Assembly (NCBI RefSeq): GCF_019443325.1
Contig: NZ_CP080383.1
Location: 1,736,001-1,800,000 of the forward strand
Source: Cryobacterium sp. PAMC25264
GTDB taxonomy: Bacteria > Actinomycetota > Actinomycetes > Actinomycetales > Microbacteriaceae
Direction: 5' to 3'
DNA: 64,000 nt
Below, in pieces: positions 8,332 through 58,662 of the stretch. The notes beneath the pieces were generated by a model. It worked only from the letters and a program-made list of their open reading frames with translations, was not told the DNA's origin and did no database searches. The position numbers and the translations under genes are program-made. Numbering within the stretch: the first letter of the stretch is position 1; the number at the start of each line of letters is the position of its first letter.

Positions 8332-9533
8332 ATGACGGTTCGACCAGACAAGCATGCGCCGCAGTCCCTCGCCGAGTCCAGCCGCGCCGTGCACGCGGGC
8401 AACGACATCGACCCCGGCACGGGTGCGGTGCGCACCCCGATCGTGATGGCGAACTCGTACGCGCTGCCCGAGGACCCCTCGACGATCAGCTGGTCGGGCA
8501 CCGATGTTCCCCTCTACACCCGAAATAGCGGCGTCAACCAGCTCGGCCTGCAGCGTAAGTTGGCGCTCCTCGAGCACGGCGAGGACGCCGTGGCACTGGC
8601 CAGCGGCGTCGCCGCGCTGCACGCCGTGTTCTTCACCTTCCTGCGCACCGGTGATCATGTCGTCGTCTCGGATGTCGCCTACGAGGCCACCTTCAAGCTC
8701 TTCCGCGAGCTCCTGCCCGACAAGTACGGCATCACGGCGACGTTCGTGGACACGAGCGACCCGGCGGCCGTCGCGGCGGCTGTCCGCCCCGAGACCCGCC
8801 TGGTGCACGTGGAGGCCATCGCCAACCCGACCACCCGGGTTGCCGACATCGCCGCCATCGCGGCCATCGCCCGAGCGGCCGGCGTCCTGCTGTCGGTCGA
8901 TTCGACGTTCACCCCGCCACCGGTGCTGCGTCCGCTCGATCTCGGTGCCGACCTCGTCGTGCACTCCCTCACCAAGTACATCAACGGCCACGGGGATGCC
9001 ATGGGCGGGGCCGTGATCGGCTCCAGCACGTTGGTGCAGCGGATCAAGTCCGAGGCGATGGTGGACGTCGGCGGGGTGATCAGCCCGTTCAACGCCTGGT
9101 TGATCATGCGCGGGTCGGTCACGCTGCCGCTTCGATTGCGCCAGCACACCGAGAGCGCCCAAATGGTCGCGAAGTTTCTGGCCGCCGACCCGCGGATCGC
9201 TTATGTCGCCTACCCGGGTTGCCGACGCATCCGCAGCATGAGCTGGCCGTTCGCCAGTTCCACCATGGGTTCGGGGGCATGCTCGCGTTCGCCGTGAACG
9301 GCGACGCCGACGCCCAGAACCGGTTCGTGGCCCGGCTCCGGGTGATCACCTCCGCCGTCTCCCTCGGCCACGACGAGAGCCTGATCGTGCACGTATCGGG
9401 CAGCGGGCCGCGGGCCGCTTACTACCCGAAGGAATTCCAGCGGCTCGGACACCTGCGGCTCTCGGTAGGGCTGGAGGACGCCGCCGACCTCATCGGGGAC
9501 CTCAAGGCCGCTCTCGACGAGACCTTCGCCTGA
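8332..9533 (+). CDS. Cys/Met-metabolism PLP-dependent enzyme (gamma-synthase/lyase family), frame broken once
   Basis: Fold-type I PLP enzyme related to cystathionine gamma-synthase/lyase and methionine gamma-lyase. The reaction is not resolved. The first frame (8332 to about 9217) carries PLYTRNSGVNQ, DAVALASGVAAL and the PLP lysine in HSLTKYINGHGDAMGG (about residue 215). The protein continues in the next frame from LPTHPQHELAVRQF to the end at 9533 (GPRAAYYPKEFQRLGHLRLSVGLED). Restoring one base in the CCCGGG run at 9213-9218 rejoins both halves into a 400-residue protein of normal family length. I therefore treat it as one gene, with a sequencing gap or a recent mutation. The start ATG is supported by the leaderless -10 in front of it. 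Confidence 0.82.
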
Positions 9534-9662
9534 CGCCAGCCCGACCCGTCGGAGAGTGGATCGCCCCGTGCGATCGGTGCGGCGCACGGTGTTCGCTCGG
9601 GTTTGGGGTCACACTGGGGGAATATCGGGAGCTGTCCGGCCGCCCGTACGAACGGAGCGATC

Positions 9663-10037
9663 ATGACCGAAGCCGATCTTTTGACTCGCTGGGCCGCGGC
9701 CCGGTGGCACATCATCGTGTCCCAGCTGGCACCCACCTTCCTGCTCACCGCCCTGATCGGGTTCACCGCGCTGGGCCTGGGCGACACCCCCGTCAGCGTG
9801 CGCATCGCCGCCGCCGGTGTTTTGCTCGCCTCCGGAATCCTGGGCGCTCTTGCGCAGATCGCCGCCGCGAATGAGGGCGGGGCGATCATCGAGGACCTGG
9901 CACTGTTGAGCGCACCGTCCGCACTCAGCCGTCGGGTCATCGCGTCGGCTCCCTGGCTGAACGTGGTTCGATTCCTGACGCCCGCGATCTTCGTGATCGT
10001 GTACATCGCCCTGCTGGCCGCGGTGTTCCTGGCCTAG
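9663..10037 (+). CDS. Small integral membrane protein, function unknown
   Basis: 124 residues with about three hydrophobic segments (roughly 20-42, 50-70 and 100-122) and a short polar loop before the last one. No catalytic motif is recognised. The ATG at 9663 is chosen because GGAG lies 5 bases upstream; an in-frame extension to 9603 would add 20 polar residues with no support. It stands alone on the plus strand, convergent with the next gene. Confidence 0.6.
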   Translation: MTEADLLTRWAAARWHIIVSQLAPTFLLTALIGFTALGLGDTPVSVRIAAAGVLLASGILGALAQIAAANEGGAIIEDLALLSAPSALSRRVIASAPWLNVVRFLTPAIFVIVYIALLAAVFLA

Positions 10038-10089
10038 CTTCACCGGTTGGGGTCTGGAGCCGGTGAGGCCCGCTCGCGGGGAACGGCCC

Positions 10090-10437
10090 TCAGGAACCCG
10101 ACGACTGGGCGTGCGGCGCCTGGCCATGGCCGGGTTGCACCGGTGCGGGCTGTGCTGGTACGGGCTGTGCTGGCGCGAAATCGGAGGGCGCGGACGACTC
10201 AGGCCCCTCCGACGACTCGTCGTCGGACGGCGACTGCTCGTCGTCCTGGCCGGACGTCGTTCCGTCGTCGGTGCCGCCGTTTCCGGTGCCGACGCTTCCG
10301 GTGCCGACCGTGGTCGTGCCACTCCCTGACGCCCAGAGCAGGCCCGCCAGCACTCCCCCTCCGACGACGCTGACCGCGCCGACCACCACCGTCACAGCCA
10401 GCGCGGCGGCCTTCCCGGTGCTTCTGATGCTGATCAC
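10090..10437 (-). CDS. Small membrane-anchored protein with disordered Ser/Gly/Pro-rich exterior
   Basis: 115 residues: a short basic N-terminus, one hydrophobic segment (about 8-36, uncleaved signal anchor or signal peptide), then a low-complexity tail, first Gly/Thr-rich, then acidic Ser/Asp/Glu-rich, then Pro/Gln/Ala repeats of the type QPVPAQPAPVQP. The start is GTG with AAGGGA 3 bases upstream. It lies behind the two-component system genes in the same orientation after a 205-base gap. Not recognised as a named family; a cell-wall spacer or sensor partner is conceivable but not shown. Confidence 0.5.
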   Translation of the reverse strand: MISIRSTGKAAALAVTVVVGAVSVVGGGVLAGLLWASGSGTTTVGTGSVGTGNGGTDDGTTSGQDDEQSPSDDESSEGPESSAPSDFAPAQPVPAQPAPVQPGHGQAPHAQSSGS

Positions 10438-10642
10438 GAATCCCTTCCCGCCCGGCCAGACCGTGGCGGCATCCGCGCTCGAGGGCGATCGTCCCCGAGG
10501 CTGTCCTGCCTCGAGCGTGCGCCGGTATTCTTCCAGAATTCTTAGATCGCCGGGACTGTGCAGATCGGCTCAGGGGGCCACCCTGTGCAGGACCCCCGGG
10601 CGGCCGCGTCCGTCGACCGGGTGAGCCGCAACCGGTGTCCCG

Positions 10643-26922: not shown

Positions 26923-29651
26923 CTACTTCTGGTCGGTCGTGGGCACCACGATGGGCTGCACCGAGGTCGTCGAGCCACCGGCCGTCGTGACGCGCCGGCT
27001 GCGCGAGCGACCCTGACCGGGCTGCTTGGGCTCGGGCAGTGAGTCCAGCACGGAATCGAGCAGCTGATCGGTGACCTGCTTGCTGACCGGACGACGACTG
27101 CGCGGTGACTTCTTCACCGGGATGTCGAGGATCTCCACGCCCTCGGACCCGTCAGCAGCTGCGGGCTGCTGGGCCTGGACACCGGTGTGCTCCCCTGTGG
27201 CCAGGTCCTCGGCGGGCTGACCCGTCGAGGCCTCGGTCGCTGGGGTCCGGTCGTCGGAGCCGGTGCCCGTGCGCACACCAGAGCGGTTGTCCGTGCGGTT
27301 GTTGTCCGTGCGGCTGTTGTCCGAGCGGCCAACCGACCGGTTCCGGGACGCGCTGCGCGAGGCAGGAGCGCCGTCAGCGGCCGGGTCGGTGGCGGTGTCC
27401 ACGGCTGCGGACTCCCCGGACGGAGCGTTGTCGGTGCCAGGCTCGGAGACCGGCGTCGAGCTGCCGGTCGGAGCGGTGCTCGTTGCCGTGGTGCCGGCCG
27501 GCTCGGTGGCGGCGGGCAGGACCGCACCAGCCGCATCCGTCTCGTTCGCTGCGATCACGGGGATGGACCCCGTGAGCGAGCGGGAGATGGTGCGCGCGGC
27601 GATCAGCGCGAGGGCGTGCTTGGCGTCCTCGGTGATGCCGTGAGTGCCCTGGCCGGCCTTGGCAGCGTCGGTGTGGGCGGCGGGCGGGGTGTGGCCGCCG
27701 CGCTGACCGGAGTTGCCACCGTCCTGGTGGGTCGATCCGTTGCCGTTGCCGGTGGATTTGCTGCGCGGGCGTCGTTCCTGGGCCGGCTGCGCCGTCTGAC
27801 GGTGCTTGACCACGGGTCGTGGTGGATGACGATCCCGCGGCCGGCGCAGGTCTCGCAGTTCTCGCTGAACGACTCCAGCAGGCCCAGGCCGAGCTTCTTA
27901 CGCGTCATCTGCACGAGTCCGAGCGAGGTGACCTCGGCCACCTGGTGCTTGGTGCGGTCCCGGCTGAGGCATTCGACCAGGCGGCGGAGCACCAGGTCCC
28001 GGTTGGACTCGAGCACCATGTCGATGAAGTCGACGACGATGATGCCGCCGATGTCCCGCAGGCGCAGCTGACGCACGATCTCGTCCGCGGCTTCGAGGTT
28101 GTTCTTGGTGACGGTCTCTTCGAGGTTGCCGCCTGAACCGACGAACTTGCCGGTGTTAACGTCGACCACGGTCATGGCCTCGGTGCGGTCGATCACGAGC
28201 GAACCGCCCGAGGGCAGCCAGACCTTGCGGTCCAGCGCCTTCTCGATCTGCTCGGAGATGCGGTATTCGTCGAACGCGTCGCGCTCGCCCTCGTAGCGCT
28301 GCACGCGCTCGACGAGGTCGGGGGCCACCTGGCGCAGGTACGACTCGATGACTTCCTGCGCGTCGTCGCCAGAGATGACCATCTTGTGGAAATCCTCGTT
28401 GAAGACGTCGCGAACGATCTTGATGAGCAGGTCGGGTTCGCTGTGCAACAGGGCCGGACCCGACACCGTCTCGACCTGCTTGGCGATGGACGCCCACTGG
28501 GCGGTCAGCCGGTTCACGTCGAGGGTGAGCTGTTCGTCGGTCGCGCCCTCGGCAGCGGTGCGCACGATGACGCCCACGTTGTCGGGCAGGACCTCTTTGA
28601 GGATCTTCTTGAGCCGGGCACGCTCGGTGTCGGGCAGCTTGCGGCTGATTCCGTTCATCGAGCCGTTGGGCACGTAGACGAGGTAGCGGCCGGGCAGGGA
28701 GACCTGGCTGGTCAGCCGGGCGCCCTTGTGTCCGACGGGGTCCTTGGTGACCTGAACGAGGACCTTGTCGCCGGGCTTGAGGGCAAGTTCGATGCGGCGG
28801 GTCTGGGTACCACCGGGCGAGTTCACCGCGGCGGCGTCCCAGTCGACTTCACCGGAGTACAGCACGGCATTGCGACCGCGACCGATGTCGACGAAGGCGG
28901 CTTCCATGCTGGGCAGCACGTTCTGCACTCGGCCGAGGTAGACATTGCCGATGAGCGACGCATCCTGGTTCTTGGCCACGTAGTGCTCGACCAGCACGCC
29001 GTCTTCGAGCACGCCGATCTGGATCTTGTTGTGCTTGGCACGCACGACCATGGCACGGTCGACGGACTCGCGCCGGGCGAGGAACTCGGCCTCGGTGATG
29101 ACCGGGCGGCGACGTCCGGCATCCCGGCCGTCACGGCGGCGCTGCTTCTTCGCCTCGAGGCGGGTAGACCCCTTGATGCGCTGCGGCTCGGTGATGAGTT
29201 CGGGTTCGCGCGGGGTGCGCACCCGCACAACGGTGTTGGCCGGGTCGTCGCTGCGGCCCTCCTCGCCGGTGCGTCGGCGGGCACGACGGCGCACCGTCGA
29301 GCTCTCGTCGGCGTCGTCATCCTCGTCGTCGAGCTGGCGACCGCCGGACCTGACCGGGGCGGGCAGGATCGCCGGCGCCTGGAAGATCAGCGACGTCGTG
29401 GGACGGCGAACCACCTCGACGGTTTCATCGAACGGGGTGGGCAGGGCGGGGAAAGCGACCGGCTGGTCCACGGCCTCGTCGACCGTGACGGGCGTTTCAA
29501 CGGGCTCCGGCAGGCTCGGAGCCTGCGGCGGAACCTGCTCGACCGGAGTCTGCTGTGCTGGAGATTGCTGAGCCGGTGCCGCCTTCCTGGTGGTTTTGCG
29601 AGTGCCGAATAGGCCCTTGCGCTTCTTGTTTTCGTTGTCTTCCACCATCAC
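26923..29651 (-). CDS. rne: Ribonuclease E/G (Rne), frame broken once
   Basis: Endoribonuclease of mRNA decay and rRNA/tRNA processing. The N-terminal frame (29651 to about 27815) has a Pro/Arg-rich extension, the S1 domain (GNVYLGRVQNVLPSMEAAF), the RNase H-like/DNase I-like core with catalytic IIVVDFIDM, RDRTKHQVAEVTSLGLVQMTRKK and the zinc-link CETCAGRGIVIHHDP. At HHDP the frame is lost: adding one base in the CCCGTGG run restores HHDPVVKHRQTAQPAQERR, which leads into the second frame ending at 26923. That disordered C-terminal tail (Thr/Asn/Asp-rich, with basic RSRRPVSKQ near the end) is the usual actinobacterial scaffold. Joined length 909 residues. GTG start with AAGGAG 7 bases upstream; the adjacent ATG is an alternative. 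Confidence 0.9.
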
Positions 29652-31463: not shown

Positions 31464-32830
31464 GGTGTCATCCAGTCCCCGGAGTCGGCCAGGGCCACGG
31501 CGTCGCCGACCAGGGTGATCGATCCGGCCACCAGAACCGCGCGTTTGGGTTCGTCCTGGGCCCAGCCGCGCGCCGCGTCAAGGGCCTGCGCGAGATCGCC
31601 GTAGCGGAAGGTTGCGGAGGACCCGGCGATCTCGTCGACGAGGTCGGCCAGGTCGTCGACCGGGATGGCCCGTTCGGAGTGGGACTGGGTGACGTGGAAC
31701 CGGGTCGCCACGGGGCGCAGGGCCTCGATGATGCCGGCGGCGTCCTTGTCTTCGAGGATGCCCACCACAACGGTGATCTCGTCGAAGTCGAAGTAGCTCT
31801 GCAGCGCGGCGGTGAGCGCCAGTGCCCCGTGCGGGTTGTGCGCGGCGTCCACGAGCACGGTCGGCTCGATGCCGACCAGTTGCAGGCGGCCGGGCGAGGT
31901 CGCGGTGGCGAGGCCTTCCACGAGGATGTCCTCGACGAGGGCCTGGCTGCCCGCGCCCAGGAACGACTCGACAGCGGCGATGGCCACGGCGGCATTCTGC
32001 GCCTGGTGGGTGCCGTAGAGCGGCAGGAACAGCTCCGAGTAGGTGCCGGCGATGCCGCGCACCGAGATGAGCTGGCCGCCGACGGCGACGTGGCTGGCGA
32101 GGAGGGCGAAGTCGGCGCCCTCGCCCACCAGGGTGGATTCCGTCAGCTCCGCGGCCCGGGACAGTTCGGCGAGCACCTCCGTCGTCTGCGCCGCGGTGAC
32201 CACGGCTGCGGCGGGCTTGATGATGCCCGACTTGGTGCGCGCGATCTCGGTGACGGTGCTGCCCAACCGCTTGGTGTGGTCCAGGGCGATCGGGGTGAAG
32301 ACGGCAACCTGGCCGTCGGCCACGTTCGTGGAGTCCCATTCGCCGCCCATGCCCACCTCGAGCACGACGACATCCACGGGGGCGTCGGCGAAGCAGGCGA
32401 ACGCCAGAACGGTGAGGGCCTCGAAGAAGGTCAGCGGCACCTCTCCGGCGGTCTCGAGCTCCGCGTCGACCATCGTGAGATAGGGCTGGATGTCGGCCCA
32501 GTTCGCGGCGAGGGCCTCGTCGCTGATCGGGACACCGTCGATCACGATGCGCTCGTTGAGCCGCACGAGGTGAGGGCTCACCAGCAGCCCGGTGCGCAGA
32601 CCGTAGGCGCGCAGGATGCTCTCGATGATGCGGCTGGTGCTCGTCTTCCCGTTGGTGCCGGTGACGTGGATGATCGGGTAGGAGCTCTGCGGGTCGCCGA
32701 GCAGCTCGACCGCGCGCCGGGTGGCCTGCAGGCGCGGCTGCGGGGCGCTCTCTCCTACCCGCTCGAGGAGGGCGGCGAAGACGGCGTCGCCGGCGTCACG
32801 GAATTCGTCGGGGAAGTAGTCGTCAGACAT
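31460..32830 (-). CDS. folC: Bifunctional folylpolyglutamate/dihydrofolate synthase FolC
   Basis: Adds glutamate to folates (and to dihydropteroate) with ATP. 456 residues, Mur-ligase fold: P-loop [73 protein letters not shown] and the C-terminal [11 protein letters not shown] use the ATG at 32830, which has AAGGA 7 bases upstream and overlaps the ileS stop by 8 bases; a GTG at 32848 would add 6 residues. Coupled downstream to DUF4233. Confidence 0.95.
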
Positions 32831-35800
32831 TGATGGTTCCTTTGTCACGGGCGACGGCCACGATGACCGGTCCTCGGTTCGCGTAGTGGTCGGCCTCGAA
32901 GCGCACGTAGTGCTCCACGACTGAGCCGGTGAGGCCCGGCAGCCATTCGGACGGGGTTCCGGTGCTCAGCACGTCGGCGGCGACGGTGGATGCCGAATGG
33001 GTGCCGAAGCGGATCGCCAGGGTCTCGCCGGCCACGTCGACGCCAGAGGCCAGGCCGAAGGTGGCCGCATCCGTGTCGTCGAAGAAGACCAGGTCGAGGC
33101 GGATCCGGTCGCTGACCTCGAAGCCGGCGGACTTGCGGGTGTCCTGCACAGCCCGGATGAGGTCGCGGGCCAGGCCCTCGGCCTCCAGCTCAGGCGTGGT
33201 GGTGGTCTCCAGCAGCACGAAGCCGCCGCCGGTGAGCAGGGCGAGGGCGGCGTTGTGCAGCACCGACTCGGCGTCGGAAGAGGTGGAGGCCGCCTGCAAC
33301 TCCAGGTCGTACTCCCCCGCCTCCAGGGCGATACCGCCGGCCGTGACCACACCGTCAGTCTCGGACCAGTCTCCGCTGCGGGCGGCCTTGATGACCTGCT
33401 GCACCTGCTTGCCGAGCCTGGGGCCGGCGGCCCGGGCGTTGACGGTGAGCTTGGAGGTGATGCCGTAGCTTTCGGCGCTGTCGGCCTCCTGTTCGACGAG
33501 GGTGACCGCCTTGACGTTCAACTCGTCGCGCAGGATGCCCTCGAACCCGGCCAGGGCGCTCGTGTCGGTGGTGACCACGGTGAGGTTCGCCAGCGGAAGG
33601 CGGACCCGCAGGGCGGCCTTCTTGCGGAGCGACAGCACGGTGGAGCTGATCAGGCGAACCTGGTCCATGGCCGTGACCAGTCCGGGGTCGGCGGGGAAGA
33701 CCGTGGCGTCGGGCCAGTCGGTGAGGTGCACGCTGCGGCCGCCGGTCAGGCCCTGCCAGATGCGCTCGGTGACCAGCGGGAGCAGCGGCGCTGCCACCCG
33801 GGTGACGGTCTCGAGCACGGTGTACAGGGTGTCGAAGGCTTCCGACCCGGTGCCGTCGGCGGCGACGCCGCCCCAGAACCTGTCGCGGGAGCGGCGCACA
33901 TACCAGTTGGTGAGCACGTCGGCGAAATCCCGTAGGCGCGAGGCGGCCAGCGTGCTGTCGAGCCGTTCGAGATCGCCGGTGACGTCCTCGATGAGGTCGC
34001 GAGTCTTGGCCAGAAGGTAGCGGTCGAGCACATCGGTGGAGTCGGTGCGCCAGGTGGCGGTGTAGCCGGAGGCGTTGGCGTAGAGCGAGAAGAAATACCA
34101 GGTGCTCCAGAGCGGCAGCAGCATCTGGCGGGTGCCCTCGCGGATGCCCTCCTCGGTGACGATGAGGTTGCCGCCGCGCAGAACCGGCGAGCTCATCAGG
34201 AACCAGCGCATGGCGTCGGAGCCGTCGCGGTCGAAGACCTCGTTGACGTTGGGGTAGTTGCGGAGGGACTTCGACATCTTCTGGCCGTCGTTGCCGAGCA
34301 CGATGCCGTGGCTGACGACGTTCTTGAAGGCGGGCCGGTCGAACAGCGCCGTGGAGAGCACGTGCAGCAGGTAGAACCAGCCGCGGGTCTGCCCGATATA
34401 TTCCACGATGAAGTCGGCCGGGTTGTGGCTCTCGAACCATTCGCGGTTCTCGAACGGGTAGTGCACCTGGGCGAACGGCATCGAGCCGGAGTCGAACCAG
34501 ACGTCGAGGACATCCTCGATGCGCCGCATGGTGGACTGCCCGGTGGGGTCGTCGGGGTTGGGCCGGGTGAGTTCGTCGATGTAGGGGCGGTGCAGGTCGG
34601 TGGGGCGTACGCCGAAATCGGCCTCGAGCTCGTCGAGCGAACCGTAGACGTCGATGCGCGGGTAGGCAGGGTTGTCGCTCTTCCAGACCGGGATGGGCGA
34701 GCCCCAGTAGCGGTTGCGGCTGATCGACCAGTCGCGGGCGTTCCCGATCCACTTGCCGAACTGGCCGTCCTTGACGTTCTCCGGGACCCAGTTCACTTCC
34801 TGGTTGAGGTCGACCATGCGATCGCGGAAGTCGGTGACGCGCACGAACCAGCTGGACACGGCCTTGTAGATCAGCGGGTTGCGGCAGCGCCAGCAATGCG
34901 GGTAGGAGTGCTCGTAGCTGGCCTGGCGGAGCAGCCGGCCCTGCGACTTGATCAACTGGGTGAGCGGCTTGTTGGCGTCGCTCCAGAGCTGCCCGGCGAC
35001 CTCGGTGACCTCGGGCAGGAACTTGCCGCCGTCGTCGAGGGACAGGATCACCGGGATGCCGTAGGCCTGGCAGACCGTCTGGTCCTCCTCGCCGTAGGCG
35101 GGCGCCTGGTGCACGATGCCGGTGCCATCGCTGGTGGTGACGTAGTCCGCGACCACGAAGCGCCAGGCGTTCTGGGTGCCCCACTCGCTCTCGTCGGCGT
35201 AGTAGTCGAACAGGCGGTCGTACGAGACGCCCTCGAGGTCGCGGCCGGTCACGGTGCGACTGATCGCGGCCGTCGCGTCTGCGGCGCTCTCGTAGCCGAG
35301 GTCCTTGGCGTAGCTGCCGACGAGGTCGATGGCCAGCAGGTATTCGCCGCCAAGAACCTCGGTGCCGGACACGGCGCCGGCTTGTTCACGCAACACCTCG
35401 GCATCCGGGTGCCGTTGGGGCCGGCGGGGACGACGGCGTAGACGATGTCGGGGCCCACGGCCAGGGCGAGGTTGGTCGGCAGGGTCCACGGGGTCGTGGT
35501 CCAGGCCAGGGCGCGCACGGCGGTGAGGCCGAGGGTCTCGGCCTTGGCGCCCACGAGCGGGAAGGTGACCGTGACGGTCTGGTCCTGGCGCATTTTGTAG
35601 ACGTCGTCGTCCATGCGCAGCTCGTGGTTGGACAGCGGGGTCTGGTCGCGCCAGCAGTATGGCAGCACCCGGTAGCCCTCGTAGGCCAGTCCCTTGGTGT
35701 GCAGTTCCTTGAACGCCCAGATCACCGATTCCATGAAGGTGATGTCGAGGGTCTTGTAGTCGTTCTCGAAGTCGACCCAGCGGGCCTGGCGGGTGACGTA

Positions 35801-36247
35801 GGCCTCCCAGTCCTTAGTGTACTCGAGCACCGATTCGCGGGCGACGGCGTTGAACGCGGCCAGGCCCATCTGTTCGATCTGACTCTTGTCGGTGATGCCG
35901 AGCTTCCGCTCCGCCTCCAGCTCGGCCGGCAGTCCGTGGGTGTCCCAGCCGAACCGGCGGTGCACCTGCTTGCCGCGCATGGTCTGGAACCTGGGGAACA
36001 GGTCCTTGGCGTAGCCGGTGAGCAGGTGGCCGTAGTGCGGCAGGCCGTTGGCGAAGGGAGGGCCGTCGTAGAAGACCCACTCCGGGGCACCCTCGCGGTT
36101 GTCGATGGAGGCCTGGAAGGTGCCGTCCTTCGCCCAGAAGTCGAGGACTTCGCCCTCGATCTGCGGGAAGTTCGGTGAGGGAACGACAGCGGCGTCGGGG
36201 CTGGCCGAATCGGACTGGTTGTCTTCGGGGGACTTCGGGTACGTCAT
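32823..36247 (-). CDS. ileS: Isoleucyl-tRNA synthetase IleS, frame broken once
   Basis: Charges tRNA-Ile; essential. The first frame (36247 to about 35410) holds [14 protein letters not shown] (the HIGH motif as HYGH, residues 71-74), WDTHGLPAE and [17 protein letters not shown] up to AGPNGT. The next frame continues [24 protein letters not shown] through [31 protein letters not shown] and the anticodon-binding domain to the stop at 32823. One missing base in the ACCCGG region (35405-35413) explains the break; the joined protein is 1141 residues, normal for the long actinobacterial form. The ATG has AGGAG 4 bases upstream, the site controlled by the T-box leader. Confidence 0.93.
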
Positions 36248-36249
36248 GC

Positions 36250-36482
36250 TTCTCCTGGACGAGGCGGTGTTGAGTCGCCGGCCTATTCCACGAGGACGCC
36301 CGCCCCGACAGGACGATGCGCGGTACCACCTCGCTTGCCGTTCCCGTGCAGGCGAACGACCGCTCATACAAAGGCTGTGACGGGCCCGACCCGTTCGGCT
36401 CTACTGGCTGGTCTCGCACCGGGGCACGATTCCACTGTTCTTCCGAAGACTCCCCGGTGATGGCCGGATCAACGTCGGTTAA
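36250..36482 (-). promoter_or_regulatory. Translational T-box riboswitch controlling ileS
   Basis: On the minus strand upstream of ileS the T-box core GGTGGTACCGCG is at 36319-36330 (its TGG can pair with the uncharged tRNA acceptor end). Further 5' lies the short actinobacterial Stem I with CCATCACCGGGGAG, in which ATC (36459-36461) is an isoleucine specifier codon, followed by GTCTTCGGAAGAAC. After the T-box comes GTCCTCGTGG and then the ileS Shine-Dalgarno AGGAG at 36252-36256. There is no terminator T tract, so control is through ribosome access: uncharged tRNA-Ile frees the SD. Confidence 0.9.
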
Positions 36483-36517: not shown

Positions 36518-37131
36518 TCAGCCGTGATCGAGAACAGGACCGAACCCGGCACAGACCGGAGTGATCGCCGCATCCACATAGGCGGTCAGGTCGCCGCGCG
36601 CCACACCGGCGCCGGCCCACTCCGTGGCGGCCGCAGCCGCAGCCGCGACCACGGCGGTGGAGAAGGCTCGCCCCAACGGGTCGGTGTCGGCCGAGTAGCC
36701 GGGCCGCGCGCCCACGTACTCCCCCACCAGGCCCACCTGCACCAGGAACCGGGCAAGGGCGGATGCCTCCAGCTCGCTAACCGTGTTCATCAGCTCGTAC
36801 TGGGTGACGGACCAGGGCACCCGGCCGGGCCCGAAGCCCTCGGCCACCCGCAGCAGCGCCTGGCGGACCGCCACGGTCACTCCGGCGCTGCGATCGCAGT
36901 CGGCCAATGCGCCGGGCAGGGCGGCGAGTCCCGCGTCGACATCCAGCCAGAGCAGGTCGCTCTTGGCGGAGAAGTAGTTGAAGAACGTGTTACGGCTCAC
37001 GCCGGCTCGCCGGGCGATATCCCCGATGGTGGTCTTGGCGTAGGTCTGCTCGAGGAACAGCTCGGCGGCGGCCTCCTCGAGCATCGCTCGGGAGGAACCG
37101 CGGGGCGGCCGACGGTGCGGGAATCGTTCAT
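36518..37131 (-). CDS. TetR-family regulator, frame broken once near the start
   Basis: A clear TetR N-terminal HTH is encoded: RAMLEEAAAELFLEQTYAKTTIGDIARRAGVSRNTFFNYFSAKSDLLW, then a helical ligand-binding domain ending at 36518. In its frame no good start exists. The ATG at 37131 opens MNDSRTVGRP in another frame, and one extra base in the GGGG run at 37102-37105 joins the two as MNDSRTVGRPRGSSRAMLEEAA, a typical TetR beginning. Joined length 204 residues. It is divergent from the ABC importer genes and probably regulates them. Confidence 0.82.
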
Positions 37132-37295: not shown

Positions 37296-38993
37296 ATGCC
37301 CCGTCCGGCACCTGTTCGATCCGTACCGCTCCTCTCGACCCGCCGCCCACTCGGTGTGGCCTTCGCCGCCGGCGTCACCGTGCTCGGTCTCGCGCTCACC
37401 GGCTGCACCAGCGCCGCTCCGCAGGCCTCGTCCACCCCGACAGCCGGCGGAACCCTCACCTACGCGTCGGGTGACGCCGAACCCACCTGCCTCGACCCGC
37501 ACGTGGGCGGGAACTACCCTCAGGCGCTCGTGAGCACGCAGTACCTCGAGTCGCTGGTCTCCCTCGACTCCGAGGGCACCGTCATCCCCTGGCTGGCCGA
37601 CAGCTGGACAGTCAGCGCCGATGGCCTGACCTGGGAGTTCACCCTGCGCGACGGCGTCACCTTCTCCGATGGCACGCCACTGGACGCCGCAGCCGTGCAG
37701 GCCAACATCGCCCACCTGCAGGACCCGACGACCGGGTCGTCCACGGGCTACCTGGCCCTCGCGAAGGTCACCGGCACCGAGGCCGTCTCCGACTCTGTCG
37801 TGCGTCTCACCCTCGCGCAGCCCGACAGCGCCCTGCTGGAGTCCCTCTCCCAGCCGTGGCTGGGCATCGAGTCCCCGACGGCGCTCGAGCGCAGCCAGGA
37901 TGACAACTGCGCCGCCCCCGTGGGCACCGGCCCGTTCGTCGTCGACTCCTGGGTGAAGCAGAACGCCATCACCCTGGTGCGGAACGACGACTACACGTCC
38001 CCGCCGGCCGACGCCGAACACGACGGCCCGGCCTACCTCGAGAAGATCGTCTGGCGCTTCATCCCCGATTCGGCCTCCCGCTATGCCGCTCTGCAGGCCG
38101 GCGAGGTCGACGTGATCGACAATGCCCAGCCGGACACCATCGCCCAGGCCGAGCAGAGCGATGCCATCGTGCACCTGGATGCGCCTCGGCCCGGTGCCAG
38201 CAACCGGATCGAGCTGAACTCGGGCAAGGCGCCCTTCAGCGATGCGGCCGTCCGCGAGGCGTTCATCCGTTCGGCGAATGTCGATGACGCCGTCGCGTCC
38301 CTGTTCCAGGGCAGTGCGGAGCGCTCCTACTCGGCCCTGTCGAGCGTCGAGCCCCTCGGAATCTCACGCCCCGAGCTCTTCGACTACGACCCCGCGGCGG
38401 CGGCGACCCTGCTCGATGACGCCGGCTGGTCCGAGAAGGACGCGGACGGCTACCGCACCAAGGACGGCGTGCGTCTCACCGTGGTCTTCCCGGTGAGCAC
38501 CAACCAGTCCATCCCGGCCGAGCAGTCCCTGTTCGAGCAGATCCAGGCGACCGCCAAGGCGACCGGGTTCGACGTGCAGCTGACCAAGCTGGATCTCTCG
38601 AGCTGGTACACGGCCCTCGGCAGTAACGCCTACGACGCCGTCAGTGCGCCGTACACCAAGGTCGGACCCGATGTCCTGCGCATCCTCTTCCACTCCGACG
38701 GAATCACCCCTGCCCCGAGCGGCTACTTCGCCAACCACGCCCAGGTGAACGACCCAGCCCTGGACTCGTTGCTCACCCAGGCAGACCAGGTCTCGACAGG
38801 CTCGACCGACGCCGATGCCGCCGAGCGTGCCTCGCTGTACGCCGACGCTCAGGACCTGATCCTGGAGGGCTTCTACATCCTGCCGCTCTACGACCAGCAG
38901 AACCACTTCCTGCTCGGCACGGCCGTGCAAGGCGCCCGCGCGCTGCCGACGGTGTCGACGCCCACCTTCTACGACGCATGGCTGAACCGCTGA
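37296..38993 (+). CDS. Peptide/nickel-type ABC transporter substrate-binding lipoprotein (SBP family 5)
   Basis: Extracytoplasmic receptor of a DppA/OppA-type importer, 565 residues. The N-terminus is a lipoprotein signal with a hydrophobic core and the lipobox LTGC (lipidated Cys37). The mature part shows the family-5 pattern: GGTLTYASGDAEPTCLDPH, LADSWTVSADGLTWEFTLRDGVTFSDGTPLDA, TGPFVVDSWVKQNAITLVRNDDY and FSDAAVREAFIRSANVDDAV. The ATG at 37296 is chosen because the signal peptide begins there; upstream in-frame starts add polar residues. The substrate could be peptides, metal chelates or sugars. The next gene overlaps its end by 16 bases. Confidence 0.92.
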   Translation: MPRPAPVRSVPLLSTRRPLGVAFAAGVTVLGLALTGCTSAAPQASSTPTAGGTLTYASGDAEPTCLDPHVGGNYPQALVSTQYLESLVSLDSEGTVIPWLADSWTVSADGLTWEFTLRDGVTFSDGTPLDAAAVQANIAHLQDPTTGSSTGYLALAKVTGTEAVSDSVVRLTLAQPDSALLESLSQPWLGIESPTALERSQDDNCAAPVGTGPFVVDSWVKQNAITLVRNDDYTSPPADAEHDGPAYLEKIVWRFIPDSASRYAALQAGEVDVIDNAQPDTIAQAEQSDAIVHLDAPRPGASNRIELNSGKAPFSDAAVREAFIRSANVDDAVASLFQGSAERSYSALSSVEPLGISRPELFDYDPAAAATLLDDAGWSEKDADGYRTKDGVRLTVVFPVSTNQSIPAEQSLFEQIQATAKATGFDVQLTKLDLSSWYTALGSNAYDAVSAPYTKVGPDVLRILFHSDGITPAPSGYFANHAQVNDPALDSLLTQADQVSTGSTDADAAERASLYADAQDLILEGFYILPLYDQQNHFLLGTAVQGARALPTVSTPTFYDAWLNR

Positions 38994-39987
38994 CGGCTGC
39001 CCGCAGCACCGGCGGGCAGCGCGTCCGGGGGTTTGGCGCGCGCATCGGCTGGCCACTCGCACGCCGGGTCGGCGGCGCCGTCTTCGTGCTGTGGGCGGTG
39101 GCCACGCTCACCTTCTTCGCGGTCCGGCTGATCCCCGGCGATCCCGCCCAGGCGATCCTCGGTGGGCCGGGGTCGCAGACCTCGCCGGAGGCCCTCGCAG
39201 CGGTGCGCGCCGAGTACGGCCTCGACCAGCCCGTTTTTCTGCAGTACCTCGCCCAACTCGGCCGTCTCGCGACGGGTGACCTGGGCCGCTCGTACGCCCT
39301 CAACATGGACGTTGGCCCGCTGGTGCTCAGCCAGCTCGGCGGCACCCTGCTCCTAGCCGTCCTCTCCCTCTCTGTGGCCTGGCTCCTCGCCCTGGGCCTG
39401 GCGACCTGGTCCACCGGGCGTGGCCGGGTGGCCCGACAGATCGGCTCGGGTCTGGAGATTGTCGCGGCGGCGCTGCCGCACTTCTGGCTGGCCACCACCC
39501 TCATCGTGGTCGTCAGCGTATGGTGGGGCATCCTGCCGCCGATCAGCACCGCGGATGCGCGTGGCCTGGTGTTGCCGGTGCTCACCTTGGCCATCCCGCT
39601 GGCGGGATTCCTCGGCCAAGTAATGCGGGAGAGCCTGACCACGGCCCTGGAGTCCCCGTTCGTGCTCTCCGCCCGTGCCCGCGGCGAGGGCGAGCGCGGA
39701 GTGCTGTGGCGTCACGCTCTCCGGCACGCGGCCTTGCCCGCCATCGGACTGTCCGGCTGGGCCTTCGGCTCGCTGATCAGCGGTGCCGTGGTGGTCGAGA
39801 CCGTCTTCGCCCGCCCGGCCTGGGCCGCACCCTGCTCAACGCGGTCACCGTGCGCGACGTGCCCGTGGTGATCGGCGTCGTGATGGTCGTCGCACTCGCC
39901 TACATCCTCATGACGATCCTCACCGACCTGGCCTCACGCCTGGCCGATCCGCGCCCCACCTCCCGTACCGCCGGAGGCGCACAGTGA
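38978..39987 (+). CDS. ABC transporter permease (DppB type), frame broken once
   Basis: Inner-membrane subunit with about six helices. First frame: LARRVGGAVFVLWAVATLTFFAVRLIPGDPA, the DppB-like N-terminal helix and PGDP motif, and the EAA loop SARARGEGERGVLWRHALRHAALPAIG; it reaches VVVETVFARP and then goes out of frame. With one base restored in CCCGGCC (39814-39819) it continues GLGRTLLNAVTVRDVPVVIGVVMVVALAYILMTILTDL, the conserved C-terminal end, to the stop at 39987. Joined length 336 residues, normal. The stop overlaps the second permease as GTGA. Confidence 0.88.
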
Positions 39988-42691: not shown

Positions 42692-42697
42692 TACGCT
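42692..42697 (+). promoter_or_regulatory. Putative -10 of a leaderless promoter (polytopic membrane protein)
   Basis: TACGCT, 7 bases, GTG at 42705. No Shine-Dalgarno. Confidence 0.35.
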
Positions 42698-42704
42698 GAG
42701 GCCT

Positions 42705-43985: not shown

Positions 43986-43992
43986 GACCCAG

Positions 43993-45185: not shown

Positions 45186-45826
45186 TCGTTCACCCCTGCA
45201 CCGACGTCGCCGAGGGTGAGTTCGAGGGTGGCGCTCACGATCGGGTCCCCGTACAGCCCGCCGTAGGTGAGCCTGCCCTCGCTGATGAAGTCGCGGTCTA
45301 GGAGGTTCACCGTGATCGGCTCCCCCTTCTTGACGTCATCGCCGGAAACCTCCCACATGTAGGCGAGCTCGACAGGCACGCCGGGTTGCACCACCACCCG
45401 GTCGCTGCCGTCGTCGATGACCAGAATCCGCTCCGGCGGCACAGCATCCGCCAGCCCGGGGACGTCGGCGATCCCAACGCTGTCCGCTTCTGTTGTCCCG
45501 AGGCGGCGGGGCTCCGACGTGGTGTTCTCCACGGTCGCTCGCACCACAAGGAGCCGGTTTCCCTCTTCGGGCACGATGCTCTGTTCAGGAAAGGCATCGA
45601 TCAGCAGCGCGCCGTTCACAACAATCGTCAGTTCGGTGCCGATGTGGCTGGCTCCAGCTTCGATCACTGGAGTGGACGGAACCGGGGCGTCATCCAGGCC
45701 GCCGACCACCGCGGAGAACGCCAGCAACACGGCCGAGACACTCGTGATGAGCCACTTGGTCGGCACATGATCGACGAGTGCCCGGACTCGCTGACTCCGG
45801 GAACCGCGCACCCCTCGGTCATCCAT
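45182..45826 (-). CDS. Single-pass extracytoplasmic protein, first of a tandem set
   Basis: 214 residues: basic N-terminus, one membrane segment (about 27-45, WLITSVSAVLLAFSAVVGGL), then a beta-rich exterior domain with GNRLLVVRATVENTTSEPRRL, PGVPVELAYMWEVSGDDVKKGEPITVNLLDRDF and a closing strand. The ATG at 45826 has TACGAT 6 bases before it; upstream in-frame starts lie in the TetR-like gene. First of three coupled genes of the same plan, 40 bases behind the TetR-like gene. Confidence 0.62.
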   Translation of the reverse strand: MDDRGVRGSRSQRVRALVDHVPTKWLITSVSAVLLAFSAVVGGLDDAPVPSTPVIEAGASHIGTELTIVVNGALLIDAFPEQSIVPEEGNRLLVVRATVENTTSEPRRLGTTEADSVGIADVPGLADAVPPERILVIDDGSDRVVVQPGVPVELAYMWEVSGDDVKKGEPITVNLLDRDFISEGRLTYGGLYGDPIVSATLELTLGDVGAGVNE

Positions 45827-45832
45827 GGGCTC

Positions 45833-45838
45833 ATCGTA
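45833..45838 (-). promoter_or_regulatory. Putative -10 of a leaderless promoter (three-gene exterior-protein operon)
   Basis: TACGAT on the minus strand, 6 bases before the ATG at 45826. Confidence 0.4.
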
Positions 45839-45866
45839 CTGAGTGACGATGGCCCGATGGGCGGGA

Positions 45867-46472
45867 TTACGATTCCACCGGAATTCCGTCCAGCAACTCT
45901 TGAGCGTGCTCGGTGATGTGCCGCCCCGCCGTGCCGTCGTGCCCCAGCACTCGCAGGCAGCTGTACAGGATGGTGGCGACCAGGGCGTCGGCGTCCTCGT
46001 CTGGACGGTCGGCACAGATCGCGATGACACTTTCCACGAGTCCGAAGACCACGTCGACGAGATAATCGTGACCCGACTCGGACCCCGCGCTCCCGGCCGG
46101 ACCCAGGTCGGCGCGCACCTCGGCCTCCACGCCGGCTGCGATCAACGCGGCATACGTGTCGGGCAGGCGGGCCCGTTCGATCCGGAAGGGCTCCAGGAGG
46201 TCGTTGCGGATCTCGGGGAGGAAGTAGAGGGTGCCCAGGTTGTGCGCGGATTCGGCCAGTTGGTCGGTGTCAAAACTGATGAGGGCGGCTAGGTGCACGA
46301 CAGCCGAGGCGGGTGCGGCGTCCCGGTAGGCGGCCACTCGCGTGGAGGGCTCCACCGTGCGCATGAGCAGGACCGTGAGGATCTGCTCCGTCGCCGACAG
46401 ATCGGGTCGAGGGGCGGCCGCCGCACGAGGCCGGCCGCGTTCGGCACGGGGCTGCACGGCATGGTCTGTCAC
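45867..46472 (-). CDS. TetR-like regulator lacking its helix-turn-helix
   Basis: 201 residues. It begins with a TetR-style N-terminal arm, VTDHAVQPRAERGRPRAA, then DLSATEQIL, where the first HTH helix should start, but passes straight to TVLLMRTVEPSTRVAAYRDAAPASAVVHLAALISFD, sequence expected only after the HTH. Roughly 40 residues including the recognition helix are missing without loss of frame. The ligand-binding helices (LGTLYFLPEIRNDLLEPFRIERARL and on) look intact. As written it could not bind DNA in the usual way. It may be a remnant, a dominant-negative partner, or an assembly artefact. GTG start at 46472. Confidence 0.7.
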   Translation of the reverse strand: MTDHAVQPRAERGRPRAAAAPRPDLSATEQILTVLLMRTVEPSTRVAAYRDAAPASAVVHLAALISFDTDQLAESAHNLGTLYFLPEIRNDLLEPFRIERARLPDTYAALIAAGVEAEVRADLGPAGSAGSESGHDYLVDVVFGLVESVIAICADRPDEDADALVATILYSCLRVLGHDGTAGRHITEHAQELLDGIPVES

Positions 46473-48373: not shown

Positions 48374-50956
48374 ATGAGCAACGCTGACCGCGTTCCCGAA
48401 AAGCCAGTCCTAGAAGGACTGGAAGCCAAATGGGAAGCCAGCTGGGAGGCTCAGGGCACCTACCGGTTCGACCGGGCCGCTGCCACGAAGCAGTCGATCT
48501 TCTCGATCGATACCCCGCCGCCCACCGCATCCGGTTCCCTCCACATCGGCCATGTCTTCAGTTACACCCACACCGATGTCGTCGCGCGATTCCAGCGCAT
48601 GCGCGGCAAGAGCGTGTTCTACCCGATGGGTTGGGACGACAACGGCCTGCCCACCGAGCGCCGCGTGCAGAACTTCTACGGCGTGCGCTGCGACCCGTCG
48701 CTGCCGTATACCCCTGACTTCGTGCCGCCCTTCGAGGGCGGCGACGGCAAGAGCACCAAGGCCGCCGACCAGCTTCCCGTGAGTCGTCGTAACTTCATCG
48801 AACTCTGCGAACGCCTCACCGTCGAGGACGAGAAGCAGTTCGAGGAGCTGTGGCGCACCCTCGGCCTCTCCGTCGACTGGACCCAGAGCTACCGCACCAT
48901 CGCGCCGGAGTCGATCTTCGCCTCACAGCTCGCTTTCGTGGGCAACGTCACCCGCGGCGAGGCCTACCAGGCCATGGCGCCGACGCTCTGGGATGTCACC
49001 TTCCGCACGGCCGTGGCCCAGGCCGAGCTCGAGGACAAGGAGATGCCCGCCGCCTACCACCGGGTGTCCTTCCACAAGCCGGATGGCTCCACCATCGAGA
49101 TCGAGACCACCCGCCCCGAACTCCTCGCGGCGTGTGTGGCACTCGTGGCGCATCCGGATGACGAACGGTACAAGCCGCTCTTCGGAACGACCGTGCGCAC
49201 CCCCGTCTTCGACGTGGAGGTGCCGATCCTGGCTCACCACCTCGCCCAGAAAGACAAGGGATCGGGCATCGCCATGATCTGCACCTTCGGCGACGTCACC
49301 GACGTGGTCTGGTGGCGCGAACTCGACCTGCCCAACCGCGCGATAATGGGCTTCGACGGCCGCATCATCGCCGAAGCGCCCGACGTCATCACCACTCCCG
49401 ACGCGCAGGCCGCGTATGCAGAGCTCGCCGGCAAGACGGTGTTCTCCGCCAAGCAGGCCATGGTCGACCTGCTCCGCGCATCCGGCGACCTGATCGGCGA
49501 ACCCAAGCCGATCGTGCACCCGGTCAAATTCTTCGAAAAGGGCGACAAGCCCCTCGAGATCGTCTCCACCCGTCAGTGGTACATCCGCAACGGCGCACGC
49601 GACGAAGCACTGCGAACCAGGCTCATCGAACACGGAACCGCTTTGCAGTGGCATCCTGAGTTCATGCGCGTGCGCTACGAGAACTGGGTCAACGGTCTCA
49701 CCGGTGACTGGCTGGTGTCCCGGCAGCGCTTCTTCGGCGTGCCGCTCCCGGTTTGGTACCCGCTCGATGCCGACGCCAACCCGGTCTTCGACCAGCCGAT
49801 CATCGCCACCCGCGAGCTGCTCCCGGTCGACCCGTCCTCCGATGTGGCTCCCGGCTATACGGCCGAGCAGCGCGGCGTCGCCAACGGCTTCGTCGGCGAG
49901 GTCGACGTGATGGACACCTGGGCTACCTCCTCCCTCACCCCCCAGCTGGCCGGCGGTTGGGAAACCGACCCTGAGCTTTTCGAGCTGGTCTACCCGTACT
50001 CGCTGCGCCCGCAGGGTCAGGACATCATCCGCACCTGGTTGTTCTCCACGCTGCTGCGTGCGGAACTCGAGCACGGCGAATCACCGTGGAAGCACGCCGC
50101 CCTGTCGGGCTTCATCGTGGACCCCGACCGCAAGAAGATGTCGAAGTCCAAGGGCAACGTGGTCACCCCGGCCGACGTTCTCGTGCAGCACGGGTCGGAT
50201 GCCGTGCGGTACTGGGCAGCCTCGTCCCGTCTCGGCACCGACGCGGCGTTCGACCCCAAGAACCCGACCCAGATCAAGATCGGTCGCCGCCTGGCGATCA
50301 AGATCCTCAACGCGAGCAAGTTCATCCTCGGCTTCGCCGGCGACGACTCCGCGCCGGTCACCGAGCCGATCGACGCGAGCATGCTCGCCCGTCTCGACCT
50401 GGTGGTGGCCCAGGCCACAGCCGCGTTCGACGCGTTCGACCACGCTCGTGCTCTGGAGGTGTCGGAGAGCTTCTTCTGGACCTTCTGCGACGACTACCTC
50501 GAGCTGGTCAAGGAACGCGCCTACGGCGAACCGGGCCCCGACCAGGCATCGGCCGTGGCTGCCCTGCGCCAGGCCCTGTCAACGCTGCTTCGCCTGTTCG
50601 CTCCGTTCGTTCCGTTCGCCACGGAAGAGGCCTGGTCCTGGTCCAACGACGGTTCGGTCCACCGCGCCCCGTGGCCGGTGGCAGGCTCGACGCCGGCGGA
50701 TGCCGACTCGCTCGCCCTGCTCGACCTGGCCAGCCGTGCCCTCACGGGCATCCGTCGAGCCAAGACCGACGCCAAAGCGTCACAGAAGTCCGCTGTCTCC
50801 TCCGCCACCATCGGAGGCACAGCGGCAGAGGTGGCCCTGCTCGGGCAGGTAGCCGCCGATTTGAAAGCAGTAGGCCGCATCGAGGACTTGACGTTCGTCG
50901 AGGCCACCGAATTGGTCGTGACTGATATCGTGCTCGCCACGGTGTCGGAAATTTAA
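48374..50956 (+). CDS. valS: Valyl-tRNA synthetase ValS
   Basis: Charges tRNA-Val; essential. 860 residues: class I motifs PPTASGSLHIGHVFSYTHTDV (HIGH near residue 56) and RKKMSKSKGNVVTPADVL, editing domain between them with ETTRPELLAACVALVAHPDD, and an anticodon-binding domain after ARLDLVVAQATAAFDAFDHARALEV. It lacks the long C-terminal coiled-coil arm of the Gram-negative type and so belongs to the shorter form. GGAGA lies 3 bases before the ATG. A GNAT gene follows after 9 bases. Confidence 0.96.
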   Translation: MSNADRVPEKPVLEGLEAKWEASWEAQGTYRFDRAAATKQSIFSIDTPPPTASGSLHIGHVFSYTHTDVVARFQRMRGKSVFYPMGWDDNGLPTERRVQNFYGVRCDPSLPYTPDFVPPFEGGDGKSTKAADQLPVSRRNFIELCERLTVEDEKQFEELWRTLGLSVDWTQSYRTIAPESIFASQLAFVGNVTRGEAYQAMAPTLWDVTFRTAVAQAELEDKEMPAAYHRVSFHKPDGSTIEIETTRPELLAACVALVAHPDDERYKPLFGTTVRTPVFDVEVPILAHHLAQKDKGSGIAMICTFGDVTDVVWWRELDLPNRAIMGFDGRIIAEAPDVITTPDAQAAYAELAGKTVFSAKQAMVDLLRASGDLIGEPKPIVHPVKFFEKGDKPLEIVSTRQWYIRNGARDEALRTRLIEHGTALQWHPEFMRVRYENWVNGLTGDWLVSRQRFFGVPLPVWYPLDADANPVFDQPIIATRELLPVDPSSDVAPGYTAEQRGVANGFVGEVDVMDTWATSSLTPQLAGGWETDPELFELVYPYSLRPQGQDIIRTWLFSTLLRAELEHGESPWKHAALSGFIVDPDRKKMSKSKGNVVTPADVLVQHGSDAVRYWAASSRLGTDAAFDPKNPTQIKIGRRLAIKILNASKFILGFAGDDSAPVTEPIDASMLARLDLVVAQATAAFDAFDHARALEVSESFFWTFCDDYLELVKERAYGEPGPDQASAVAALRQALSTLLRLFAPFVPFATEEAWSWSNDGSVHRAPWPVAGSTPADADSLALLDLASRALTGIRRAKTDAKASQKSAVSSATIGGTAAEVALLGQVAADLKAVGRIEDLTFVEATELVVTDIVLATVSEI

Positions 50957-51809: not shown

Positions 51810-53053
51810 TCAACCGTTCGGCGTCTCCCACCGCCACAGGGCGGCCAGGCCGAGACCACCCGCGATGCTGAGTGCGGTCAAACCCAGTTCTCCCGGTGAC
51901 GCACCGCTTCGCGCCTGCTGCAGGAGCCGAAGCACCAGCATCGCGCCCGAGGCGCCGTAGGGATGCCCGAGGGCGAGCGCCCCGCCCTGGCGGTTGGCCC
52001 GCTCCACCGGCACGCCCATCAGGTCGAGCGACGCCAGCACCTGTGCCGCGAACGCTTCCGTGAACTCGACCCGGCCCACGTCGCCGGGAGACACTCCCGT
52101 GCGGGCGAAGAGCGCCTGCCCGGCCGCTGCCCCGCCCACACCCAGCAGAGTCGGGTCGACGCCCGCCGCGACCGCATCCACGAAGCTCAGGTACCCGGAT
52201 GCGCCCCAGGCGTCGGCCCGGGCGCGGCTGGTCACGACCACGACCACCGCACCGTCGGCGTCAGCGCAGGAGTTCCCGGCAGTGACGGATCCACCCGGGG
52301 TGAACGCGGCCGGGAACCGAGCCAGGAGACTCTCCCCCAGCCCGGGCGGGGACCGGAGTCAACCGCGAAGGGTCCGCCCGGTGTCTGGATGGCAACGATC
52401 TCTTCCTCGAAGGCACCTGCCGCTCTCGCCGCCACGGCGAGGTGATGGCTGCGCAGCGCGAAGGCATCCTGACGTTCGCGGGTGATGCCGTAGGCCGCGG
52501 CGACGGTGTCGGCTGCGACACCCATGTCCGGGTCGCCCAGGTGATCCGGAGAGAAACGCACCCTGTCGTAGAAGTCAGGGGCGTCGGGCTGTGAGCTGAG
52601 GCGGTGGGCGCGGAGGGGCGCCGTGCTCGTGCTGTCGACCCCGCCGGCGAGGTAGAGGCTGCCGGCGCCGGCCTGAACGAGTCGGCAGGCCAGCACAATG
52701 GCTTCGAGGCCCGACCCACACTGGCGGTCGATGGTCTGCCCCGGCACTGAAACCGGCAGGCCTGCCGTCAGCAGCGCCAGTCGGGCCACGTTGCCGCCGC
52801 CGCCGACCGCGTTGCCGATGATGACGTCATCCACCCCCACCGCAGGGATTCCGGTGGCGGCCAGCACGGCCGCGAGCACCGGCGCCAGAAGGTTCTCCTG
52901 GGTGACGGCGCCCAGCGCGCCGTTGCGTCGGGCGAAGGCCGTTCGGCGGCCGAGCAGGATCACCGGCTCCCGGTCGGCCGCGGACGGGGTCTTGCCGTCC
53001 GGGCCTGTTCCGGATGCAAGGCTGCCGTCCGGGTCAGCGGAGTCGAACGACAC
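51810..53053 (-). CDS. Thiolase-fold protein with altered active site, frame broken once
   Basis: Thiolase superfamily, 414 residues when joined. First frame (53053 to about 52345): DDVIIGNAVGGGGNVARLALL and the nucleophile Cys112 in QTIDRQCGSGLEAIVLA, up to FAVDSGPRPG. One missing base in CCCGGG (52341-52346) switches to the second frame, with GRVEFTEAFAAQVLA and the GHP loop NRQGGALALGHPYGASGAM, ending at 51810. Two other motifs deviate: NEAF reads TEAF, and the C-terminal CxG with the second catalytic Cys reads SIAG (LTALSIAGGLGLA). Normal condensation or cleavage is therefore doubtful. The GTG start overlaps the ligase gene by 20 bases. Confidence 0.82.
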
Positions 53054-57479: not shown

Positions 57480-57542
57480 CCCCACCAGGGGCTCATCCAC
57501 CCCCACCAGAGGCTCGACCAACCCCGCCGGCGGCGTCGCGCG
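57480..57542. repeat. 21-bp degenerate tandem repeat, 3 copies, behind dcp
   Basis: Units 57480-57500, 57501-57521 and 57522-57542 share a CCCCACCAGNGGCTC-like core; the third is the most diverged. They begin directly after the dcp stop codon. Confidence 0.6.
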
Positions 57543-57568
57543 AATCCCCTCCCAAATCTTTCTCCTCC

Positions 57569-57619
57569 GGACAAATGCACCCGGCACGTGGGGTGCAATC
57601 GTCCGGAACGGGAACAGTC
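57569..57619. repeat. 51-bp direct repeat, copy 1 (left of acdS)
   Basis: Matches 59530-59580 at 42 of 51 positions without gaps. Inside it CGGAC/GTCCG and TGCACCC/GGGTGCA form a two-part hairpin with a GGCACGTG loop. It lies between dcp and acdS. Confidence 0.8.
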
Positions 57620-57640
57620 AGTCCGTGGGAGCGACGCTGC

Positions 57641-58662
57641 TCAGTGGTACAGCGCGCTGTAAGCGTTGATGGCGGGCTGCCCGCCCAGGTGGGCATAGAG
57701 CACCGTGCTGTCCGGTCCGATGTCACCGGAGCTGACGAGATCGATCAGCCCGGCCATCGACTTGCCCTCGTAGACCGGGTCGATGATGACGCCCTCCAGG
57801 CTCGCGGTGAGGCGGATGGCGGCATTCGTCGACTCGACGGGGATCCCGTAGTAGTCCCCGGCCCAGCCCTCGAGCACGGTGATCTCGTCATCGGCGATCG
57901 GCCGGCCCACACCGATGAGCTCCGCGGTCCTGCGGGCGATGCGGGCCACCTGCTCGCGTGTCGCCTCGATCTTGGCGGAGGCGTCAATGCCGATGACCCT
58001 TCGTCGGCGGCCGCCGAAATTGGCCTCCAGATCGGCGAAGCCGGCGATCATGCCCGCGTGAGTGGACCCGGTGACGCTGCACACCACGATGGTGTCGAAG
58101 AAGACGCCCTGCGCGGCCTCCTGCTCGGCCACCTCGTGTGCCCAGTTCGCGAAACCGAGACCGCCCAGCCGGTGGTCGGAGGCGCCGGCGGGGATGGGGT
58201 ACGGCGTGCCGCCCGACGCCTCGACATCGGCTATGGCCTGCGTCCAGGAGTCTTTGAAACCGATGCCGAAGCCGTCGGCGGAGATGCGCACATCCGCCCC
58301 GGTGAGGCGGGAGAGCAGGATATTGCCGACCCTGTCGTTCACACTGTCCGGCCAGTCCACCCACTGTTCCTGCACGAGCACGGCCTTCAGCCCAAGGTGC
58401 GCGGCCACCGCGGCCACCTGCCGGGTGTGGTTGGACTGGATGCCACCGATCGAGACCAGGGTGTCCGCTCCCTGGGCCAGCGCCTCGGGGATGAGGTATT
58501 CGAGCTTGCGGGTCTTGTTGCCGCCGAAGGCCAGACCGCTGTTGACGTCCTCACGTTTGGCCCAGATCCGGGCGCCACCAAGGTGGTCGCTCAGTCGGTC
58601 AAGCGGATGAATCGGGCTGGGCCGAAGGTGAGCGGGTGACGGGGAAAATCGCGCAGTGCCAT
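57641..58662 (-). CDS. acdS: 1-aminocyclopropane-1-carboxylate (ACC) deaminase AcdS, frame broken once
   Basis: PLP enzyme that opens ACC to 2-oxobutyrate and ammonia; in plant-associated bacteria it lowers plant ethylene. The ATG at 58662 starts [15 protein letters not shown]; one missing base in the GGGCTGGG stretch (58614-58622) shifts to the frame [40 protein letters not shown], containing the PLP lysine (GGNKTRK, about residue 51). The rest is intact, with [54 protein letters not shown] (catalytic Tyr-Glu) and YAHLGGQPA (active-site Leu). Joined length 340, family length 338. AAAGGA lies 4 bases upstream. The related D-cysteine desulfhydrase is the alternative. Confidence 0.88.

Follow-up and report, generated by a model that had tools for sequence, protein, structure and literature searches.

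According to the Kastor paper (PMC12007338), long-read errors consist mainly of short indels at homopolymers, and in the long-read example given there false deletions make up the majority of indels, most of them lying after stretches of four to five. Similarly, an evaluation of MinION assemblies reports that SNPs and indels are over-represented at homopolymers (PMC6325685). Here we examine a 64,000-base stretch of a Cryobacterium chromosome (hereafter, the window), in which the original prediction had placed seven genes, each broken by the loss of one base beside a G/C run. The window comprises bases 1,736,001-1,800,000 of a single contig of 4,064,970 bases, rated 99.99% complete; its GC content is 64-71% along its length, in a genome of ca. 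68% GC. The C-terminal part of its ileS gene matches Cryobacterium sp. 1639 and Cryobacterium arcticum SK-1 at 92%, the closest among the named matches listed.

All counts of losses and gains were made against one other genome of the same genus (G004), which is collinear with most of the window at 90-97% identity, mostly 93-97%. Alignment of G007 and G002 stretches with the window was confined to the surroundings of the thiolase gene, and these stretches were not used further. A segment of ca. 3.2 kb (window 42640-45860) has no G004 alignment; Cryobacterium sp. 1639 aligns with it at ca. 71%, and C. arcticum SK-1 does so within a longer block of ca. 80%. This segment has apparently been lost from, or replaced in, G004.

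Seven split genes in the window

Alignment with G004, where all seven genes are open, bears out the original prediction of one missing base in each: net one-base losses lie at window positions 9215, 27814-27816, 35406, 37101, 39813, 52345 and 58618, every one within about four bases of the predicted place. These are the only net frameshifts here among the G004 genes contained entirely within a single block of the window alignment, and the reverse comparison adds a single edge case (window 45867-46337), in which G004 is without two bases at the very end of the gene. Profile scans also confirm the family names that had been given, namely a Cys/Met-metabolism PLP enzyme, an RNase E/G, an isoleucyl-tRNA synthetase, a TetR regulator, an ABC permease, a thiolase and an ACC deaminase. 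The predicted placement beside G/C runs needs qualification, in that five of the losses shorten a run of 4-5 G or C bases, whereas those in the thiolase and ACC deaminase genes only adjoin runs. That these two lost bases do not lie within a run counts against an undercall of run length. The description of the genes as broken is strongest for ileS, thiolase, the PLP enzyme, the permease and acdS.

The clearest of the seven breaks is that in ileS (32823..36367, minus strand), which lies in two frames with a net one-base loss at 35406. The frame changes between residues 1-280 and 274-1141, which are 99.6% and 97.9% identical, respectively, to the G004 protein. Apart from these two pieces, a whole-genome search for the family turned up only far weaker matches; nothing in this genome passes the cut-off (0/1), whereas 14 of 14 control genomes do, and ileS is the only isoleucyl-tRNA synthetase found in this genome by that search. 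Among 80 relatives, 77 have an ileS frame open for at least 1000 amino acids, and the extra base is present in 39 of the 56 relatives' loci compared at the site, the remaining 17 having other local gap counts. One of the three exceptions among the 80 begins at a contig end; the other two are themselves in two frames, in Rathayibacter tanaceti VKM Ac-2596 (L051:9084-12229) and Cryobacterium sp. MLB-32 (L055:8870-12314), and possibly reflect a similar assembly error in those contigs.

Two further genes are divided such that both parts are recognizable by profile. In the PLP enzyme of the methionine gamma-lyase/cystathionine gamma-synthase kind (8332..9533, plus strand), with its loss at 9215 in a G/C run, the N- and C-terminal parts lie in different frames and match the same NCBIfam profiles, and the G004 copy is open. 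The same holds for the thiolase (51810..53053, minus strand), whose two parts match thiolase profiles in different frames on either side of a net one-base loss near 52345, adjoining G/C runs; again the G004 copy is open, and all seven other loci compared, which come from four genomes, have the extra base. The ABC transporter permease (BPD_transp_1; 38978..39987, plus strand, the downstream end being estimated from the G004 gene length) has a net one-base loss at 39813, where 35 of 35 other loci have the extra base. The acdS gene (ACC deaminase; 57641..58662, minus strand, the upper end being that of the original prediction) has its net one-base loss near the 5' end, at 58618, adjoining a G/C run, and its G004 copy scores 517.4 bits, over the TIGR01274 cut-off of 392. 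The acdS and PLP enzyme sites could be compared with G004 only.

The other two genes are less clearly broken. The rne gene (RNase E/G family; 26923..29651, minus strand) has a net one-base loss at 27814-27816, a site at which all 60 other loci spanning it have the extra base; the C-terminal tail is shifted, whereas the catalytic core stays in frame (profile positions 2-415 of 415). The original prediction had treated both rne and ileS as indispensable. For ileS, which is single-copy and clearly hit, the argument stands; because the catalytic core remains in frame, rne is weak evidence on this point. In the TetR-family regulator gene (36518..37131, minus strand, the upper end being estimated from the G004 gene), the net one-base loss at 37101 falls at about codon 10, upstream of the helix-turn-helix, so both domains remain in one frame. 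Of eight other loci at this site, four have the extra base, three show +8 and one shows 0.

An eighth clean one-base shortening affects a C run at window 37255-37263 (at 37259), between the TetR gene and the next gene, a region called intergenic from the G004 gene calls. It sits upstream of an ABC substrate-binding protein gene, and a promoter or leader study of that gene could be misled by it. Elsewhere in the window, a valine--tRNA ligase (48374-50956) scores 1445.3 against the 900-bit cut-off of an alternative ValS exception model.

Single-base losses across the chromosome

The comparison was widened to 18 stretches flanking the window and nine at three distant places on the same contig, each aligned with its G004 counterpart. 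In total, 553,436 of the 4,064,970 bases were compared; of eight dispersed stretches, four for which no G004 counterpart was retrieved (L121, L123, L125 and L127) and one that repeats another stretch (L124) were left out of the counts, and run comparisons were dropped if the six flanking bases on either side held more than one mismatch or any gap. Within the window and the 18 flanking stretches, clean single-base indels leave a base missing here in 71 cases vs 18 in G004. The asymmetry is marked at G/C runs of at least three, which over all 553,436 aligned bases are shorter here in 59 cases and shorter in G004 in 6 (binomial p 5e-12); inside predicted genes the figures are 35 and 0. Nearly all of the shortenings (56 of 59) amount to one base, and the other three to two, three and four bases. 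The rate of loss rises with run length, from 14 of 12,407 runs of three to 20 of 2,264 runs of four, 18 of 512 runs of five and 5 of 32 runs of six. A/T runs of lengths 2-6, by comparison, gave 5 losses here vs 4 in G004. By place, the losses (here:G004) number 43:4 around the window, 8:1 near 0.7 Mb and 6:0 near 2.7 Mb, where two of the six are the differences of three and four bases; near 3.7 Mb the ratio is only 2:1, too few to tell alone.

The original prediction that other genes of this genome would be mis-called in the same way also held. Among 457 fully aligned G004 genes, 381 show no non-triplet indel here and 34 show interior single-base losses only, 30 of these with one loss and four with two. 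A lone interior gain was seen in none of the 457. The 42 genes with mixed or gene-edge indels were counted as neither intact nor broken. In the reverse direction, an interior loss in G004 affects 2 of 463 genes of this genome.

We scanned 33 of the 34 broken genes for family membership. Substitutions in the exception, L145:248-1207, are patterned like those of a misread frame, and its place among the 34 is doubtful. Matches above the curated cut-off were obtained for sufC, tkt, uvrA, gltB, gltD, secF, pepN, murA, ffh, ftsY, rpsD, an EmrB-type transporter, rplN, thiL, rsmD and acdS, whereas a phosphoglycerate kinase, an rsmB-like gene, part of a dihydroorotase, an acyl-CoA ligase-like gene, a nitrate-reductase-like gene and a shikimate kinase could be named only below it. 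At the thresholds used, the scan gave no family for L147:18755-19951, L178:3693-4760, L140:5901-6740 and L147:10872-11294. Genes of the type of sufC, tkt, phosphoglycerate kinase (pgk), secF, murA, ffh, ftsY, rpsD, rplN and thiL are generally indispensable. When the whole genome was searched for rpsD, ffh, rplN and pgk, none turned out to have an intact copy elsewhere; the matches to ffh, rplN and pgk each come in two pieces, and in rpsD the first 21 profile positions are missing from the matching frame. Together with ileS, these four are single-copy genes that have been hit.

Weighing error against biology

If the broken genes were decaying, relaxed selection and other disabling changes would be expected to accompany the frameshifts; these marks of pseudogenes were looked for in the 457 genes, and the expected pattern was not seen. 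The ratio of substitutions at codon positions 1 and 2 to those at position 3 is 0.126 in the 34 broken genes vs 0.135 in 377 intact ones (bootstrap 95% range 0.102-0.174), four intact-looking genes having been left out as misread frames. Stops created by substitution occur in three properly framed genes of the 457, one of which is also frameshifted. No substitution was seen in the 121 rplN codons compared, yet the gene lies in two frames. Thus, purifying selection on the broken genes is undiminished and nonsense substitutions are few, and the substitution pattern fits sequence error rather than pseudogenes.

These observations bear on whether the losses could be real mutations in this strain, arising in a lineage with deletion-biased slippage or through ongoing gene decay. 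Natural slippage, too, is expected to grow with run length, so the dependence on run length would suit this reading as well. The distribution of losses between genes and the sequence around them also speaks for it: 24 of 2,193 runs outside genes are shortened vs 35 of 13,025 inside (Fisher p 7e-7), as selection would produce. The loss rate outside genes is some two to four times that inside, whereas a simple undercall predicts equal rates. When coding was re-scored locally and the runs were stratified by length, 23 losses lay outside genes vs 7.7 expected from the coding rates, and allowing for six natural ones, as judged from the shortfalls of G004, leaves 23 against 7.7 + 6 (p ca. 0.014). 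Some of the intergenic losses could be genuine indels of a kind that selection removes from genes. As an explanation of the breaks, however, real mutation is very improbable. It would have struck single-copy ileS, pgk, rpsD, ffh and rplN; purifying selection on the broken genes is undiminished; and real decay would bring gains and stop substitutions, where we see no lone interior gain and three genes with a substitution stop among 457. A slippage mutator would generally be expected to gain bases as well as lose them. An intergenic lean has been described before: the Kastor paper presents a long-read assembly with 32.6% of its indels outside genes in a genome that is 89.1% coding, and suggests natural intergenic variation as a cause (PMC12007338).

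A different possibility is that the sequence is right and that the cell gets past the breaks at G/C runs, either through ribosomal frameshifting or through slippage of the transcript. Indispensable-type genes are affected, the losses lie at or beside runs, and conservation at the protein level extends over both sides of the breaks, all of which this reading would accommodate. We nevertheless give it almost no weight, far less even than real mutation. Neither G004 nor the other loci compared at the rne, permease and thiolase genes share these sites, so that the conservation in relatives expected of recoding sites is lacking; every one of those other loci has the extra base (60/60, 35/35 and 7/7, respectively), and the ileS frame is open in 77 of 80, as noted above. 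A run by itself cannot serve as the signal, since among runs of three to six bases no more than 0.1-16% are affected, and no clear motif was found beyond the run: in 48 position tests on the 59 events no coherent common motif emerged, the best z-scores being 3.65 (for T at the fourth base past the run) and 3.13 (for G at the second), and an earlier, smaller set had hinted at runs with A before and G after. About one gene in 13 would need such a mechanism. It is scarcely credible that the deposited sequence is right and that, in translating G/C runs, this Cryobacterium reads a base twice and so tolerates hundreds of one-base losses, including some in genes for ribosomal proteins and tRNA synthetases. 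A modified base that disturbs base calls through a shared motif was also considered, and was rejected on the same lack of a coherent motif in the 48 position tests.

A systematic undercall of the consensus, which the original prediction had proposed as the best explanation, emerges from these comparisons strengthened, most of what it predicts having been observed: losses far outnumber gains and become more frequent in longer runs, the same bias is found away from the window, indispensable single-copy genes are not spared, and no other mark of decay accompanies the breaks. The seven breaks are almost certainly errors of the deposited consensus, in which G/C runs would have been undercalled. Because the error pattern reaches well beyond the seven genes and includes indispensable ribosome genes, the apparent breaks most likely have no biological meaning and are an ordinary artefact of sequencing. 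In the deposited sequence, G and C runs would have been called too short at roughly one site in every 10 kb, almost always by a single base, presumably through long-read base calling in an assembly that was incompletely polished. Each miss within a gene would shift the remainder out of frame, so that ca. 7% of genes would look broken. The living cell very probably has intact copies, and we would expect the reads to disagree with the consensus at these sites.

Consequences and comparison with known systems

Extrapolation from the excess of 53 in 553,436 bases suggests ca. 390 G/C-run undercalls in the genome. The splitting of some 7% of genes (34/457) matters for any user of this genome, since pseudogene counts, missing enzymes and gene families taken from the assembly would be wrong; its estimated completeness of 99.99% says little on the accuracy of its reading frames.

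The genome resembles a decaying one with real pseudogenes in having frameshifted reading frames. Unlike real pseudogenes, the broken genes here include indispensable types, and they come with few stop substitutions, no lone interior gains and no relaxed selection. The resemblance to the long-read homopolymer deletions described in PMC12007338 and PMC6325685 lies in the concentration of indels at homopolymers. As in the example of the Kastor paper (PMC12007338), false deletions would predominate here, genes are split and the intergenic share of indels is raised. That example has more A/T than G/C cases, whereas in this genome, of ca. 68% GC, the losses are mostly in G/C runs.
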